A DNA stretch of 64,000 nt from the NCBI RefSeq assembly GCF_027943725.1, contig NZ_AP025696.1, positions 907,501 through 971,500 on the forward strand. Direction: 5' to 3'. Below the pieces are notes generated by a model, which had not been told where the DNA came from, made no database searches, and worked only from the letters and a program-made list of their open reading frames with translations. Positions 6,569 to 41,111 of the stretch are shown here, piece by piece; positions within the stretch are counted from its first letter, which is position 1; the number at the start of each line of letters is the position of its first letter. Source of the stretch: Nitrosophilus kaiyonis. Its GTDB lineage: Bacteria > Campylobacterota > Campylobacteria > Campylobacterales > Nitratiruptoraceae. The position numbers and the translations under genes were made by a program.

Positions 6569-6614
6569 TATAAAGAGGTATAACGGGATAGTGGAATAGG
6601 AGATAAGGGGGTAA
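6569..6614. repeat. heptad-repeat tract after ftsI (GGATAGT flavour)
   Basis: Purine-rich 7-bp-spaced units (AGGTATA, ACGGGAT, AGTGGAA, TAGGAGA) fill the space between the ftsI stop and the family B element. Confidence 0.7.
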
Positions 6615-6791
6615 GTGAGCGAGGGCAAAGCGAAGCTTTAAGACAACAACTGCTTGTTGTCTGTGCCCGAGCGAAAGCCTTGAGTATATGTGAGTCCGAA
6701 AAACAAGGTTTTTCGTGACGAACATACGAGAGGTTGGTTTACCTTGAAGAAAATCAAATGAGCAAAGTGAATGAAGATTTTCGGTTAAATT
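6615..6791 (+). repeat. structured repeat family B, copy 1
   Basis: A non-coding multi-hairpin element in the ftsI-alaS gap. Hairpins in order: AAAGC-GAA-GCTTT (6627-6639); AGACAACAA-CTGC-TTGTTGTCT (6641-6662); a long stem with AGCCT/AGGTT outside, GTA(TA)TGT/ACATAC inside and CGAAAAAC-AAG-GTTTTTCG at the tip (6676-6735); then TTTACC-ttgaa-GAAAATC paired with GATTTTC-GGTTAA (6738-6788). An outer GGGCA/TGCCC encloses the first two. Copy 2 at 37188-37394 keeps the layout and loops with compensating stem changes. The strand shown is the one in which G-U pairs fit. Confidence 0.85.
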
Positions 6792-6895
6792 TGAGGGTGA
6801 AGGTTGAAGGGAGAAGGTAGAAGGGGATAAAGGAAGTGGCTAATTCCCAATTCCTAATGACTAATGACTAATGTCCAATGACCAATGTCTAATCT
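6792..6895. repeat. heptad-repeat island upstream of alaS
   Basis: Two flavours in succession: GAAGGTT/GAAGGGA units, then AATTCCC, AATTCCT, AATGACT, AATGTCC in strict 7-bp register up to about 6895. A possible promoter (TTAAAAT, 6903-6909) and the alaS ribosome site GAGGAA follow. Confidence 0.85.
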
Positions 6896-6936
6896 CATTT
6901 ATGTTAAAATTAGCAAAAAAATATTAAGAGGAATTT

Positions 6937-20359: not shown

Positions 20360-20505
20360 CAAGTGAGAAGTCATTGGTCATTAAGTGATTATTCATTAGT
20401 AAAAATTAGTGATATTGGATAGTGATAGTTGAGAGGTTTTAACTACTCAACCAAATTCCTCCTAATGACCAATGACTAATGACTAATGAGTAATGTCCAA
20501 TTTTA
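20360..20505. repeat. heptad-repeat island in the purE leader
   Basis: Left arm of AGTCATT/GGTCATT/TTCATTA units, right arm of CCTAATG, ACCAATG, ACTAATG, ACTAATG, AGTAATG units in 7-bp register; the arms are on opposite strands and can pair around a unique centre (about 20405-20455). Confidence 0.85.
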
Positions 20506-20515
20506 AAGGAGTTTT

Positions 20516-21086: not shown

Positions 21087-21283
21087 GAATGCTCTGAAAA
21101 ATTATCAAATTTTACTCAAACAAGTTGAAATTTTTAGTAAACTAACGCTTGAAAATTTTATTAAAAAGTGCAAACGCAAGCGCCCTAAAAGGGTAAATGC
21201 ACTTTTTTGGCCTAAAGGCCAACATAAAATTTTCATACTAAAATTTCAAAGTTTTCGTTCAATTTGTAATTTTTCAGAGGTCT
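21087..21283. repeat. near-palindromic dispersed repeat family A, copy 1 (197 bp)
   Basis: Identical in length to the copy at 39583-39779, with four base differences. Imperfect terminal inverted repeats begin CTCTGAAAAATTA at the left and, on the other strand, at the right. Inside are a stem AAAAAGTGCA/TGCACTTTTT (21163-21207) enclosing CCCT-AAA-AGGG, and TTGGCC-TAAA-GGCCAA (21207-21222). It encodes no recognisable protein although one frame is open throughout. MITE-like. It is flanked on both sides by heptad tracts. Confidence 0.88.
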
Positions 21284-21352
21284 TAATGTCTAATTTCCAA
21301 TTACCAATGCCTAATGACTAATTACAAATTACTAATGTCCAATGACTAATTT
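21284..21352. repeat. heptad-repeat tract right of family A copy 1
   Basis: TAATGTC, TAATTTC, CAATTAC, CAATGCC, TAATGAC, TAATTAC, AAATTAC, TAATGTC, CAATGAC, TAATTT: near-perfect 7-bp register before the next gene's ribosome site. Confidence 0.88.
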
Positions 21353-25066: not shown

Positions 25067-25185
25067 TATTTAGTCATTAGACATTAGACATTAGTCATTA
25101 GTAATTGGTGTTAAATAAAAGTTTTGAATTTATTATTAATTACTACTAATGACTTAATGACTAATGACCATTGACTAATGTCAAG
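25066..25185. repeat. heptad-repeat hairpin island before waaA
   Basis: Left arm ATTAGTC/ATTAGAC units and right arm CTAATGA/CCATTGA units, opposed around an AT-rich centre (about 25110-25135). It begins directly at the stop of the upstream gene. Confidence 0.85.
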
Positions 25186-25193
25186 GCAATTGA

Positions 25194-26342
25194 ATGTTTC
25201 CCATATTTTATACAATACTTTTAACTATTTTATATATTTTTTCAATCCCTTTTTTAATTCTTCTCTCTTTTAAAAAAAAGTATAAAAGGTCAATTCCAGC
25301 AAGATTTTTTCTTATTAAAAATCCTCCATTTAATGAAAAACTTGTCCATTTTCATTCATGTAGCTTTGGAGAAACAATCTCATTAGAGCCTATTTTAAAA
25401 AATTTTGAAAAAGTAAATATTTCTGTAATTACAGATACCGGTTTTAATGCAGCTAAAAGATATAAAAATGCTGATGTTAGATTTTTGCCATTTGAGATAT
25501 TTTTATGGTTTTGGCTGAAGCCTGGGAAAGTTTTGGTTGTTACTGAAGCTGAACTTTGGTATCTTCTTTTTTATCTATCAAAAAAAAGAGGTTCATATAC
25601 ATTTTTAATAAATGCAAGAATTAGTGATAAAAGCTATAAGAGTTATCTCAAATTTAGATGGTTTTATAAAAAAATATTTGAGAATATTGATTTTATTTTT
25701 GCTCAAAGTGAAGAGGATAAAAAAAGATTGATAGAGCTTGGTGCAAAAAATGTTGAAATTGCAGGAAATATAAAATTGGCTAATACTCCTAAAATTTCAA
25801 AGCATTATAAAAAACCAAAAAAATTTATAATTGTAGCTGCAAGTACACACGACCCAGAAGAAGAAATCATTGTAACTGCTTGGATTGAAAGTGGTATGAA
25901 AGATTCTATTTTAGTAGTTGTGCCAAGACATCCAGAGAGGTTTGATGAGGTTGATGAATTACTTTCTAATATAGCAAAAAGAGAAAATTTATCATATCAT
26001 AGATTTTCACAAAGAGATGATTTTGATGCAGATATAATACTTGTTGATAAATTGGGAGAGCTTATAAATATTTATAAAATTGCTGATCTTGTTATACTAG
26101 GTGGAAGTTTTGTATCTGTTGGTGGTCACAATCCTTTAGAGCCAGCTTTTTTCAATAAACCAATTATTAGTGGAAAATATATATTTAATCAAAAAGAGAC
26201 CTATTCTTATGTCGATGGTATTATGCTAATAGAAGCTAATGAATTAAAAGATATTTTAAAAGAGAAAAAATTTATACCAACAAAAATTAAAGCTAAAGTA
26301 GATATAAATAAAATTGTTAAGGCGATAAAAGATGTGGTTTGA
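25194..26342 (+). CDS. waaA: 3-deoxy-D-manno-octulosonic acid transferase
   Basis: Adds Kdo to lipid A precursor at the cytoplasmic face of the inner membrane. 382 residues: an N-terminal membrane anchor (about 3-26), SCSFGETISLEPIL with the catalytic Glu, VVTEAELWY, and the GT-B C-terminal half with FAQSEEDKKRL, AGNIKLA and LGGSFVSVGGHNPLEPA. The order waaA after the zinc-ribbon gene is conserved. It overlaps the DUF167 gene by 11 bp. Confidence 0.94.
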   Translation: MFPIFYTILLTILYIFSIPFLILLSFKKKYKRSIPARFFLIKNPPFNEKLVHFHSCSFGETISLEPILKNFEKVNISVITDTGFNAAKRYKNADVRFLPFEIFLWFWLKPGKVLVVTEAELWYLLFYLSKKRGSYTFLINARISDKSYKSYLKFRWFYKKIFENIDFIFAQSEEDKKRLIELGAKNVEIAGNIKLANTPKISKHYKKPKKFIIVAASTHDPEEEIIVTAWIESGMKDSILVVVPRHPERFDEVDELLSNIAKRENLSYHRFSQRDDFDADIILVDKLGELINIYKIADLVILGGSFVSVGGHNPLEPAFFNKPIISGKYIFNQKETYSYVDGIMLIEANELKDILKEKKFIPTKIKAKVDINKIVKAIKDVV

Positions 26343-36246: not shown

Positions 36247-36287
36247 TCTGTGAATTAAATAAATTTTACTAATATATGGAGAAAGGC

Positions 36288-37187
36288 ATGCTCAAAGATT
36301 TTACAAAACTTGAAACCTTTTTGACAGTTGTTAGGGAAAAAAGTTTTTCTAAGGCTTCTGCTAAACTTGGGATTTCACAACCTGCAGTAACACAACAGAT
36401 AAAATATTTAGAGGACTATCTTGATACGAAAATAGTTGAAAGAAAGAAAAATGGCATAAGACTTACAAAAGAGGGTGAAGAGGTTTATAAGATTGCTTTA
36501 AAACTTGAAAGATGTATTTTAAATGCAGAAAAAGAACTATTTAAAATAATTAATAAAGAGATAACTTTCATTATTGGTGCTTCATTTACTATTGGTAATT
36601 ATGTTTTGCCTGAAGTTTTAAATAATCTAAAAGAGGCTATTAATAATGATGTATTTATAAAGGTTGAAGTCAGTGAGAAGATAGTTGATGAAGTACTGGA
36701 TAAAAAGTGTGATATAGGACTAATTGAATCTCCTATAATGAAAGAGGGCTTAATTTATAGAGAATGGATGGATGATGAACTTGTTTTATTTAGTAATACT
36801 CCTCTTCCTAAATATGTAAGAAAAGAAGATTTATATAGATTTAACTGGATATGTAGAGAAGAGGGCAGCCATACAAGAAAATTGGTTTCTGAAGTTTTTG
36901 AATCAATGGGAGTTGAGTGTAAAAGTTTCAATGTTATTAGTGAAGTTAGTAGCTCAACTGCAGTTGTTCAAACAATTCTTAGAAGTCCAGTAAATAAAGA
37001 GAATCCTACTGTGTCAATTATTTCAAAATATGCAATTGCAAATGAAGTTGAAAATGGAAAACTTTATGAGGCAAGAATAAAAGGTATAAAAATTAAAAGA
37101 AAATTTTATATTGTTTATACAAAAGAGAGAAAGCATGATCCATTCATAGAAAAAGTTGTTGATTTTCTTTTAAAACTTAAAAAATGA
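36288..37187 (+). CDS. LysR-family transcriptional regulator
   Basis: 299 residues: winged helix-turn-helix DNA-binding domain (KLETFLTVVREKSFSKASAK, LGISQPAVTQQIKYLEDYL) and a periplasmic-binding-like effector domain (IIGASFTIGNYVLPEVL, VLDKKCDIGLIESPI). The effector is unknown. ATG 36288 is preferred because GGAG lies 6 nt ahead; ATG 36276 overlaps that site. Its targets may include itself or nearby cysK, but no operator was identified. Confidence 0.9.
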   Translation: MLKDFTKLETFLTVVREKSFSKASAKLGISQPAVTQQIKYLEDYLDTKIVERKKNGIRLTKEGEEVYKIALKLERCILNAEKELFKIINKEITFIIGASFTIGNYVLPEVLNNLKEAINNDVFIKVEVSEKIVDEVLDKKCDIGLIESPIMKEGLIYREWMDDELVLFSNTPLPKYVRKEDLYRFNWICREEGSHTRKLVSEVFESMGVECKSFNVISEVSSSTAVVQTILRSPVNKENPTVSIISKYAIANEVENGKLYEARIKGIKIKRKFYIVYTKERKHDPFIEKVVDFLLKLKK

Positions 37188-37394
37188 GCAAATCAAGCGA
37201 GTAAAACAAGCGAAGATTTGCAGTTAATAAAGCCGAAGGCTTTTAGAAAGCCAACTGCTTGGCTTTCGTATCTTTGTGAAAGCTTACTGTATATGCGAGC
37301 TCAAAACTAAGAAGTTTTGTATGTGAGCATACTGTAAGCTAATTGACCTTGAAGCAAATCGTAATGAGTAAAGCGAATTAGATTTGCGGTTAAA
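37188..37394 (+). repeat. structured repeat family B, copy 2
   Basis: Begins at the LysR stop. Order: a first terminal hairpin GCAAATC/GATTTGC followed by AGTTAA (37190-37227); AAAGCC-GAA-GGCTTT (37229-37243); GAAAGCCAA-CTGC-TTGGCTTTC (37246-37267); a long stem AGCTTAC/GTAAGCT, GTA(TA)TGC/GCATAC and CAAAACT-AAGA-AGTTTTG (37281-37340); then TTGACC-ttgaa-GCAAATC paired with GATTTGC-GGTTAA (37343-37393). The loops GAA, CTGC and the ttgaa bulge are identical to copy 1 while stems differ by paired changes. Confidence 0.87.
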
Positions 37395-37487
37395 TTAGTG
37401 GAATAAGGCATAGCTAGATAGTGGAGAAGCTGTAAAGAAGCTAATTCCTAATTCCCAATTACTAATTACTAATGTCCAATGACTAAT
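37395..37487. repeat. heptad-repeat island after family B copy 2
   Basis: GGAATAA/AGATAGT-type units, then AATTCCT, AATTCCC, AATTACT, AATTACT, AATGTCC, AATGACT in strict register up to the end of the convergent gene. Confidence 0.85.
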
Positions 37488-37490
37488 CTC

Positions 37491-37946
37491 TTATACCTTT
37501 TTCTTCCTCTTTTTAAGAAGTTTTTGATTTTCTGGATTTGATAAAAGTGCTTCCATTGAATTTTTTGCATTCTCAGATTTTTGTTTTATAACTGTAGCAG
37601 TTAGATTTACAAAAATTGGAGTCTCATCTACAATAATTTGAAGTATAGATTCAATAGGGACTTTTACTATACTTCCAAAATTATTAGGTCCAAATCCTGC
37701 TTCAAATATTAAATTGCCATTTTCAATTCGTGCACTCTCAAACGTATAATTCATTATCATAAACAGAGTAAACTCAGAAAAATTAGATTTTATATCTTGA
37801 GGAAGATCTGGATCAAATTTTACTCTTTTTGTATCAGTTAAGACAGCAAAAGGTTGATCTTTTTCTAATAGATATTTTATAAGTGATGTTGCATGATTTT
37901 TTAAAATAGCTGCAAACTCTTCATCTTGCAATATATCATATAGCAT
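37491..37946 (-). CDS. SspB-like protein (possible ClpXP adaptor), unnamed family
   Basis: 151 residues. The central part (YLLEKDQPFAVLTDTKRVKF, then FTLFMIMNYTFESARIENGN, FEAGFGPNNFGSIVKVPIES, ILQIIVDETPIFVNL) follows the beta layout of SspB, the adaptor that hands ssrA-tagged proteins to ClpXP: a short N-terminal helix, a LxxxAxFGG-like turn and a VPIxxILxI strand. The basic tail KKRKKKV could play the ClpX-contact role of SspB tails. This is pattern recognition, not a confirmed family match. It is the last gene of the cysK-pabC-like minus-strand run. Confidence 0.5.
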   Translation of the reverse strand: MLYDILQDEEFAAILKNHATSLIKYLLEKDQPFAVLTDTKRVKFDPDLPQDIKSNFSEFTLFMIMNYTFESARIENGNLIFEAGFGPNNFGSIVKVPIESILQIIVDETPIFVNLTATVIKQKSENAKNSMEALLSNPENQKLLKKRKKKV

Positions 37947-39582: not shown

Positions 39583-39779
39583 GAATGCTCTGAAAAATTA
39601 TCAAATTTTACTCAAACAAGTTGAAATTTTTAGTAAACTAACGCTTGAAAATTTTATTAAAAAGTGCAAACGCAAGCGCCCTAAAAGGGTAAATGCACTT
39701 TTTTGGCCTAAAGGGCAACATAAAATTTTCAAACTAAAATTTCAAAGTTTTCGTTCAATTCATAATTTTTCAGAGGTCT
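39583..39779. repeat. near-palindromic dispersed repeat family A, copy 2 (197 bp)
   Basis: Same length as copy 1 (21087-21283) with four substitutions: GGCC to GGGC in one hairpin (now one mismatch), one T/A change, and a two-base TG to CA change near the right end. The CA version restores longer terminal symmetry (CTCTGAAAAATTAT at both ends). Its open frame shows one silent and two replacement changes, giving no sign of protein-level selection. Confidence 0.88.
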
Positions 39780-39832
39780 CCATAATAAATTCTAATATCT
39801 AATGACTAATGACTAATGTCTAAACCATATTT
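39780..39832. repeat. heptad tract right of family A copy 2
   Basis: CTAATAT, CTAATGA, CTAATGA, CTAATGT, CTAAACC units. The rest of the 39500-39582 gap holds only AT-rich sequence with a short ATTAGAC/ATTGGTA piece. Confidence 0.75.
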
Positions 39833-39839
39833 TAAAATC

Positions 39840-41111
39840 TTACCAAATAACATCGCTTTTTGCAATATTACATGAGTGGAAAACTACCATATTATGCATT
39901 CTTGCATAGTATTTGATTATAAGATTTTGTAATATTGGCTCAATTGATGGAGTAAACCAAGCGTTATTACTAATAGCAATCATATATTTTGGTGCATTTT
40001 TATAAAGAAGTGGATGTGTTGCTTCATAACATATTGCATTTCTAAATTTTATATTTTTTATTTTAAAATCTGTAGGTTTTTTAGCTTTTTGATAATCTTC
40101 AGCACCATTGAAAAATATCTCATTTACATGTTTTGCTAAAAATTTTGGAAGAGGAGTCTCTTCTCCAAAAGGAACAAGCACAACTTTATCTGCAATTATT
40201 AATCTTTCATTTATAAAAATGTATGAAGAGTTATAAGGAAGAGAGTTTTTATAATGAAGTCCACCTGTAATTATGGCTATTTTTTTACTCTTTTCTTTTA
40301 AAATATTTAATAAATCATCATCTAAATTAAGATACATAGGAAAAGCGCTCTCAGGTAACACTACTAAATCATATCCTTTTTCTATTGCTTTATCTATGAT
40401 TTTTAAATTTGAATATACTATTTTTTCTCTATATTTTGGATCCCATTTAACATCTTGAGGAATTTTTGTCTGGCTTAGATAAATTTTTAGATTGGGCATT
40501 TTTGGCTTGCAATCTTTAAAATCAACAGCCAAAAAAAGCAAAACAAAAACAGTAAAAAATTTCCCCAAATTCCTAATATCCAATTTCCATTTCCTAATTC
40601 CTAATATCCCCATATTAATAGCTAATAAAATTAATAAAAACGATAATTTATCAAAAGAAAACATAGTATTAACAAGTGTTAATTCTGGTATAAACCAGTT
40701 AAAACCAAATGGATGGATATAGCTTAAAGTTAATAAAAATAAACTTTTAATTAAGCTGTGAAGCTGCGAAGGAGTGAAGCTGTGAAGATTTTTACTAATT
40801 CCCAATATTATCCAATTACTAATCACTTCAATTAACCAAAAAATTATTCCATAAACCAAACCAACAAATAAAATAACTATTGGTATCATCCAAGAAAGAT
40901 TGTAATATCTAAAACTAAGTCCTATCCAATAAAACCACAAAATCCCTATAAAAAAACCTATCCAAAAATTGAGTTTTTTATCTGCTTTTAAAATAAAAAA
41001 TAAAGATATAACAGCCAAAATTGAGTTTAAATATATATTTTTTATTTCCAAATATTCACTATAAATAAAAAAACTAAAAGCAGTTGCAATTAAAAAGGCT
41101 TTTATTAGCAA
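39840..41111 (-). CDS. lnt: apolipoprotein N-acyltransferase
   Basis: Adds the third acyl chain to lipoproteins in the inner membrane. About seven membrane helices are followed by a nitrilase-like domain with the catalytic Glu (VVLPESAFPMYL), Lys (GGLHYKNSL) and Cys (FRNAICYEATHP). The start is uncertain: TTG 41111 (LLIKAFLIATAFS) is plausible; the longer open frame from 41210 would overlap yajC by about 55 bp and adds non-family sequence. Two heptad tracts lie inside the coding region and are translated in frame. The Lnt-YajC-SecD order matches C. jejuni. Confidence 0.85.
   Translation of the reverse strand: MLIKAFLIATAFSFFIYSEYLEIKNIYLNSILAVISLFFILKADKKLNFWIGFFIGILWFYWIGLSFRYYNLSWMIPIVILFVGLVYGIIFWLIEVISNWIILGISKNLHSFTPSQLHSLIKSLFLLTLSYIHPFGFNWFIPELTLVNTMFSFDKLSFLLILLAINMGILGIRKWKLDIRNLGKFFTVFVLLFLAVDFKDCKPKMPNLKIYLSQTKIPQDVKWDPKYREKIVYSNLKIIDKAIEKGYDLVVLPESAFPMYLNLDDDLLNILKEKSKKIAIITGGLHYKNSLPYNSSYIFINERLIIADKVVLVPFGEETPLPKFLAKHVNEIFFNGAEDYQKAKKPTDFKIKNIKFRNAICYEATHPLLYKNAPKYMIAISNNAWFTPSIEPILQNLIIKYYARMHNMVVFHSCNIAKSDVIW
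40558..40618. repeat. heptad tract inside lnt (AATTCCT flavour)
   Basis: CAAATTC, CTAATAT, CCAATTT, CCATTTC, CTAATTC, CTAATAT units, read on the minus strand as part of GIRKWKLDIRNLGKFF between membrane helices. The frame stays open. Confidence 0.8.
40750..40835. repeat. heptad tract inside lnt (GTGAAGC and AATTCCC flavours)
   Basis: TGTGAAG, CTGCGAA, GGAGTGA, AGCTGTG and then ATTCCCA, ATTATCC, AATTACT, AATCACT. It is translated in frame on the minus strand as the polar loop SNWIILGISKNLHSFTPSQL. Confidence 0.8.

Follow-up and report, generated by a model that had tools for sequence, protein, structure and literature searches.

Two stretches of a 64,000-nucleotide piece of the Nitrosophilus kaiyonis genome (hereafter the window), named B1 and B2, share a chain of hairpins, and they raise the question of whether such a chain is a structured RNA, a transcript-end element or a non-autonomous mobile unit. 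The original prediction, drawn from these two copies, held that they differ in ways that keep pairing and that a folded RNA, or DNA hairpins, had been under selection. Every change on which it relied is present in the sequence. Hairpin 1 reads AAAGC-GAA-GCTTT in B1 and AAAGCC-GAA-GGCTTT in B2, and hairpin 2 reads AGACAACAA-CTGC-TTGTTGTCT and GAAAGCCAA-CTGC-TTGGCTTTC, respectively. TGT/ACA in B1 corresponds to TGC/GCA in B2, the distal stem AGCCT/AGGTT to AGCTTAC/GTAAGCT, and GAAAATC/GATTTTC to GCAAATC/GATTTGC, with the TTGAA bulge. Folded singly, B1 and B2 each show the described hairpin chain. The two-copy observation is real, and it understated the case.

The element is modelled as a fold of about 180 nt with three domains, namely P1 (which holds the hairpins P1a and P1b), P2 and P3. 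The features in the window are as follows.

6613..6793, plus strand: B1, full element (covariance model match C1:914113-914293, 211.7 bits, E 1.7e-46)
6619..6672, plus strand: P1 outer stem of B1, GC-GA-GGGC (6619-6626) with GCCC-GA-GC (6665-6672), from the fold and pair counts
6627..6639, plus strand: P1a hairpin of B1, AAAGC-GAA-GCTTT (helix 4)
6641..6662, plus strand: P1b hairpin of B1 (helix 5)
6676..6735, plus strand: P2, long hairpin with internal G.A loops, conserved TATATGYGA...GARCATA and an apical AAG loop (helices 6-7)
6736..6791, plus strand: P3 hairpin, GGTTTACC-TTGAA-GAAAATC...GATTTTC-GGT-TAAATT (helices 8-12)
37183..37398, plus strand: B2 (covariance model match 37204-37398, 132 bits, E 8.1e-28)
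37188..37221, plus strand: extra P3-like hairpin in the 5' part of B2, GCAAATC...GATTTGC (sequence and fold)
37229-37243, plus strand: P1a of B2, AAAGCC-GAA-GGCTTT (sequence and fold)
37246-37267, plus strand: P1b of B2, GAAAGCCAA-CTGC-TTGGCTTTC (sequence and fold); P1a and P1b together span 37229..37267

Open reading frames were called mechanically, Pfam was run on five window proteins, and several other gene names used below were read by eye from sequence. By Pfam, the neighbours of B1 are a penicillin-binding protein gene (stop codon 6566-6568) and alaS (start 6937), and B1 is in sense orientation to both. The true start of B2 is the TGA stop codon (37185-37187) of an upstream LysR-type gene (36276-37187; Pfam), and this TGA is provided by AAATGAGC, the 5' end of B2.

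Extent of the family

A search of the N. kaiyonis genome (a single contig of 1,769,550 bp) with B1 as query yields about 30 substantial matches, dispersed over both strands and many of them at 75-90% identity. With 28 copies as input, a covariance model recovers 31 sites that score over 100 bits, plus a few degraded ones, a count that covers the genome apart from 595001-597500, which reads N. Members are also found beyond the source genome in other Campylobacterota. Matches to the first covariance model occur in 20 of 100 relatives, and a broader model (E<=1e-4) finds them in 42 of 399 genomes of the order, belonging to 13 of 87 genera. Among the weak matches, some that come from genomes holding one to three each are diverged forms in which P1, the AACTGCTT hairpin and P2 are kept and P3 is usually missing; the low-scoring matches L272 and L273 carry CGCTGCTG in place of AACTGCTT. 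When 84,980 species were scanned for an exact pattern, 30 stretches from Campylobacterales and one Sphingomonas contig came up, the latter probably by chance, and viral contigs gave no match to the collection pattern.

The element had been taken to belong to no known RNA family, and this is borne out: Rfam 15 gives no match at the gathering threshold in the window and none at E<=1 in five loci with own-genome and distant copies. Thus the prediction came through the wider search with further copies found, stems retained and no known element matched. We found no description of the family in the open-access literature. It is a previously uncatalogued family of folded elements of about 180 letters, whose hosts include deep-sea vent relatives of Campylobacter. 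Tandem arrays of two to three copies, spaced by about 165-206 bp and some mutually identical, are seen at L229, L096/L113 and G002:C72.

Two other kinds of repeat are found in the window. One, at 21087-21283 and 39583-39779, is an imperfect palindrome, about 197 bp long, whose inverted ends read CTCTGAAAAATTAT; its window copies are 98% identical, the genome holds five full copies (91-100%), and the family looks like a MITE. The other consists of degenerate intergenic heptamer tracts (CTAATGA/CCAATGA, TTAAGAG and CTTCAAC types), present at 6834-6900, 20449-20515, 21284-21350, 25070-25196, 37435-37501, 39779-39845 and elsewhere. By our own criterion, period-7 tracts number 147 genome-wide, against 0-56 for periods 5, 6, 8 and 9, and a tract lies within 60 nt of 12 of 30 elements. 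Similar heptamer repeats have been described from Beggiatoaceae and Cyanobacteria (PMC4679880).

Fold anatomy and covariation

In P1b the loop AA-CTGC-TT is near-invariant, as is AACTGCTT across the family, while the P1b stem covaries freely; helix 5 is paired in 98.4% of cells and shows two-sided change in six of nine pairs among 61 sequences. Nearly all long hairpins with a CTGC loop in the N. kaiyonis genome are family members. Helix 4 (P1a) is paired in 95.7% of cells in alignment A1 and 95.9% in A3, with two-sided change in 2 and 4 pairs, respectively. In P2 (helices 6-7) 93-95% of cells are paired and 17 of 23 pairs changed on both sides (61 sequences). The tandem G.A of the P1 outer stem reads GA/GA in 24 of 68 rows and is replaced by AA/TT Watson-Crick pairs in 17. 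A set of small relatives ('family C', about 110 nt) has the order P1-P1b-P2 without P3, and its copies sometimes sit antisense within a larger copy.

When the 28 own-genome copies are aligned by sequence only, 89.9% of cells are paired, compensatory change is seen in 32 of 62 pairs, and covariation scores 0.301, compared with 0.144 in shuffled alignments and at most 0.08 when the partners are slid. The pairing measures exceed all of 500 shuffles and every slid control, the shuffles being ones that ignore kinship and do not keep relatedness and pairing together. Among 61 distinct sequences, in an alignment that was fitted to the model and so leans to structure, two-sided compensatory change extends to 47 of 62 pairs (698 two-sided cells), 92.7% of cells are paired and the score is 0.506, against 0.179 shuffled and below 0.08 with partners slid. 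The claim of selection on a folded RNA or on DNA hairpins therefore gains from the larger sample, in which more copies retain the stems and compensatory change goes beyond both kinds of control. In those pairs that are mainly Watson-Crick, G-U (104) exceeds A-C (54); in the sequence-only own-genome alignment the excess is small (50 against 39). This gives modest support to folding of the given strand, whether in the form of RNA or of single-stranded DNA.

Orthologous copies allow the fold to be followed in place. At the 3' end of tsf (elongation factor Ts, read by eye from its C-terminal codons), copies in four Nitratiruptor-group species have 48 pairs with 100% of cells paired, and 11 of these pairs are altered on both sides, against 3.7 in shuffles. 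Copies behind a gene that reads by eye as frr are likewise common to species. The tsf copies argue that the structure has been selected after insertion at this site, unless copies overwrite one another by gene conversion, which could mimic some of the in-place covariation.

In copies of groups f10 and f7 (L229, L240, L118, L281 and L117), the 5' arm of P1 extends into coding sequence, for example over a C-terminal Gly-Gly-stop (GGATAAAACG), and the 3' arm is the exact complement of this coding-overlapping arm. Such complementarity may result either from compensatory evolution or from an inverted target copy made at insertion.

Placement at gene ends and CRISPR array ends

For 22 of 28 copies in the own genome (P=0.004) and 36 of 45 elsewhere (P=7e-5), pooled 58 of 73, the upstream gene lies on the same strand as the element. 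The element starts between -12 and +20 nt from the upstream stop codon in 11 of the 22 own-genome and 19 of the 36 other same-strand cases, and the stop codon is often the element's own TGA (AAATGAGCG). A tRNA-Val gene (C1:670950-671150, minus strand) is directly followed by a T7-tailed hairpin with the AACTGCTT loop, together with a P2-like hairpin; the two are possibly a minimal or ancestral form of the element. Another AACTGCTT hairpin is located between tRNA genes.

Like intrinsic terminators, the element places hairpins at 3' ends, and its P1b is T-tailed in some lineages. It is conceivable that the family is one of intrinsic terminators whose conserved loop is unusual and whose copies arose mostly through ordinary segmental duplication. 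In favour of this are the position at gene ends and the T-tailed P1b hairpins of the f10 group (longest T run after P1b of 5 in 11 of 18 rows) and after tRNA-Val. In N. kaiyonis, however, the longest T run after P1b is 2 in 22 of 30 copies; since most own-genome copies lack a T-tract, P1b is not a classical intrinsic terminator here, and since most downstream genes are co-directional, full termination is unlikely at every site. Moreover, termination requires neither three covarying domains, as conserved in this fold, nor a near-invariant loop, the flanks are not duplicated along with the element, and empty sites exist. We consider a terminator family quite unlikely.

A second kind of end is found at CRISPR arrays. 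The element splits the CRISPR repeat (GTCTCAATCCCCTTCAAATCGGGTC...) in at least nine genomes of four families, and at least 12 copies interrupt the terminal repeat of an array. In the clear cases the intact repeats (3-19) are all found to one side of the element, with none on the other, so that the split repeat is the terminal one. Genome G002 has three such sites, with about 90 nt of flank in common at 94-95% identity. Because the repeat normally reads with GATTGAGAC at its 3' end, and cas1 is on the array side in G002, G008, G012 and G036, the element probably occupies the leader-distal end. Insertion into the leader-proximal repeat was also considered; it is less likely than the trailer end, given where cas1 lies and how the repeat is oriented (ending GATTGAGAC). 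With the arrays oriented in this way, the element is in sense for f1 and f7; G036 and G076 have a family C copy in sense, the large element there being antisense. On that orientation, the CRISPR ends would agree with the gene sites and the two tRNA sites in that the element marks 3' ends. The suggestion of a transcript-end element thus finds its counterpart in sense placement at gene ends and at array ends.

The N. kaiyonis genome itself has a CRISPR array at 768.7-770.7 kb, with about 30 copies of a different repeat (ATATTAGTATCCAATTATGGGAT...) and without the element. It lies next to an apparently broken Cas1 gene (C1:767413-768254; two matches, one with a stop).

RT-Cas1 fusion genes adjoin element-bearing arrays in two genomes (G008:C1:1304202-1306040 and G012:C51:8660-10519), and in G036 separate RT and Cas1 genes stand beside such an array. 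Together with the few copies that have flanking duplications of variable length, this would suit a SINE-like RNA that a reverse transcriptase such as these fusions had inserted by retrotransposition. We regard this as highly improbable, since the presence of a reverse transcriptase or Cas1 does not follow the copies: RVT_1 (PF00078) is missing from the own genome, G002, G030 and G048, all of which have many copies, Cas1 from G007, G009, G030 and G048, and the element shows no poly-A-like or fixed 3' tail.

Past mobility, known repeats and a candidate role

Presence and absence of copies at given sites can be observed directly between genomes. G003 carries copies at several sites that are empty in N. 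kaiyonis, for example behind genes that read by eye as grpE (…VSVAK*) and frr (…IMKV*), and three sites, B2 among them, are filled in both. Because the B2 site is filled in a sister species, B2 is older than the species split. Direct repeats abut a few copies, of 44 bp in an hsdS-like gene (by eye; L270), 19 bp in an rRNA leader (L266), and 14 bp (L102) and 12 bp (L271) in CRISPR repeats. Most copies have no flanking duplication above control level, and there is no single target-duplication length. TIR-like ends (GTGAGC...GCTCAC) occur at the CRISPR copies of G002 and at no own-genome copy. The filled and empty sites, the nested insertions and the few flanking duplications together point to past mobility, in line with the idea of a non-autonomous mobile unit. 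The own-genome copies appear old, the best pair being 95.6% identical and the median 75%.

The N. kaiyonis genome holds no Y1_Tnp (PF01797), found by the same search in 5 of 14 control genomes, no Cas12f1/TnpB (PF07282), no DDE_Tnp_1 (PF01609) and, as noted, no RVT_1. A mobilising enzyme may lie outside the four families searched, or may have been lost from this genome. A relation to IS200/IS605 or REP-RAYT was rejected as no Y1_Tnp is present. A composite transposon was rejected at the closest same-strand copies (1577723 and 1579366), where the single large ORF between them reads by eye as a BioA-like aminotransferase. An integron attC site was also discarded by inspection; the P3 boundary resembles GTTRRRY, yet the copies are dispersed with P1 and P2.

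These observations bear on the main rival explanation, which is that the element is selfish DNA whose single-stranded hairpins are the substrate of a hairpin-recognising transposase, as are REPs and IS200/IS605 ends. The fold would then be kept for movement, and the gene-end placement would be what purifying selection leaves by tolerance. The antisense nesting of related elements in one another, the flanking duplications at some copies, the TIR-like ends in G002 and the filled and empty sites are all in its favour. On the other hand, the genome with most copies has no protein of the four families, the duplications vary in length and are missing at most copies, and the sense bias is strong. Pure selfish mobility also does not explain why old copies keep the fold at orthologous sites after insertion. 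This explanation is possible, though on the unlikely side.

MITEs such as Correia and Nezha are short, non-coding and base-paired and show filled/empty polymorphism, all of which holds for the element; in contrast to typical MITEs, the family does not in general have terminal inverted repeats or target duplications of constant length. BOX, RUP and SPRITE of Streptococcus pneumoniae are small interspersed repeats with extensive predicted secondary structure and old insertions, are presumed to be non-autonomous mobile elements and can affect co-transcribed genes; BOX frequently supplies the stop codon of the gene before it, as in 36 of 58 overlapping CDSs (PMC3049150). Our element is likened to BOX by description, not by sequence: like BOX and BIMEs it is structured, located at gene ends, non-autonomous and old, and like BOX it supplies stop codons. 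Unlike BOX/RUP/SPRITE, it shows one three-domain fold, in which compensatory change is massive throughout an order, a near-invariant AACTGCTT loop, a strong sense bias and insertions into terminal CRISPR repeats. REP/BIME sequences are extragenic hairpins near gene ends, thought to be mobile and to affect transcript stability or termination, and REPs are single palindromes of 20-40 bp with GTAG or CGTC tetranucleotide tags and often a RAYT (PMC3733652). The element shares with them mobile hairpins near gene ends; unlike REPs, it is about 180 nt long, its host genome has no Y1 transposase, and the 28-copy consensus shows neither the REP size (20-40 bp) nor a fixed GTAG/CGTC tag. The CRISPR-end insertions and the order-wide covariation are the points in which it is unusual among known repeats.

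Since the fold is kept in place, the orientation is sense and the position is at 3' ends, an RNA at transcript ends is the simplest account. We therefore favour, with moderate confidence, a sense-strand, transcript-end structured RNA that has spread as a non-autonomous mobile repeat of Campylobacterota. The element would be placed in sense at the 3' ends of genes or operonic segments, that is at mRNA stop codons, CRISPR array ends and tRNA genes. The upstream gene would be transcribed and translated up to the stop codon, and the RNA downstream would fold. The P1b hairpin with its loop AACUGCUU would then be recognised by a protein or an RNA, and recognition may fix the 3' end before the next gene by termination, processing or protection from 3' exonucleases. 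The element would have spread through an enzyme absent from our own-genome searches, and old copies would now be passed on vertically with the fold conserved. A bolder version, which we find doubtful, is a dedicated transcript-end system of Campylobacterota, in which a mobile RNA module installs itself at stop codons, tRNA ends and terminal CRISPR repeats and some cellular factor would read it through its AACUGCUU hairpin.

A few bacteria are known to carry dispersed structured repeats, whose mechanism and function are mostly open. The present family offers clear evidence for in-place selection on a fold, together with a relation to stop codons and CRISPR ends, and adds an RNA family without an Rfam entry from an abundant group of vent bacteria. 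As hosts such as Nitratiruptor and Nitrosophilus are culturable, the choice between selfish DNA and a working transcript-end RNA becomes testable. If the dedicated transcript-end system were true, one spreading element would set the 3' ends of mRNAs and pre-crRNAs genome-wide.
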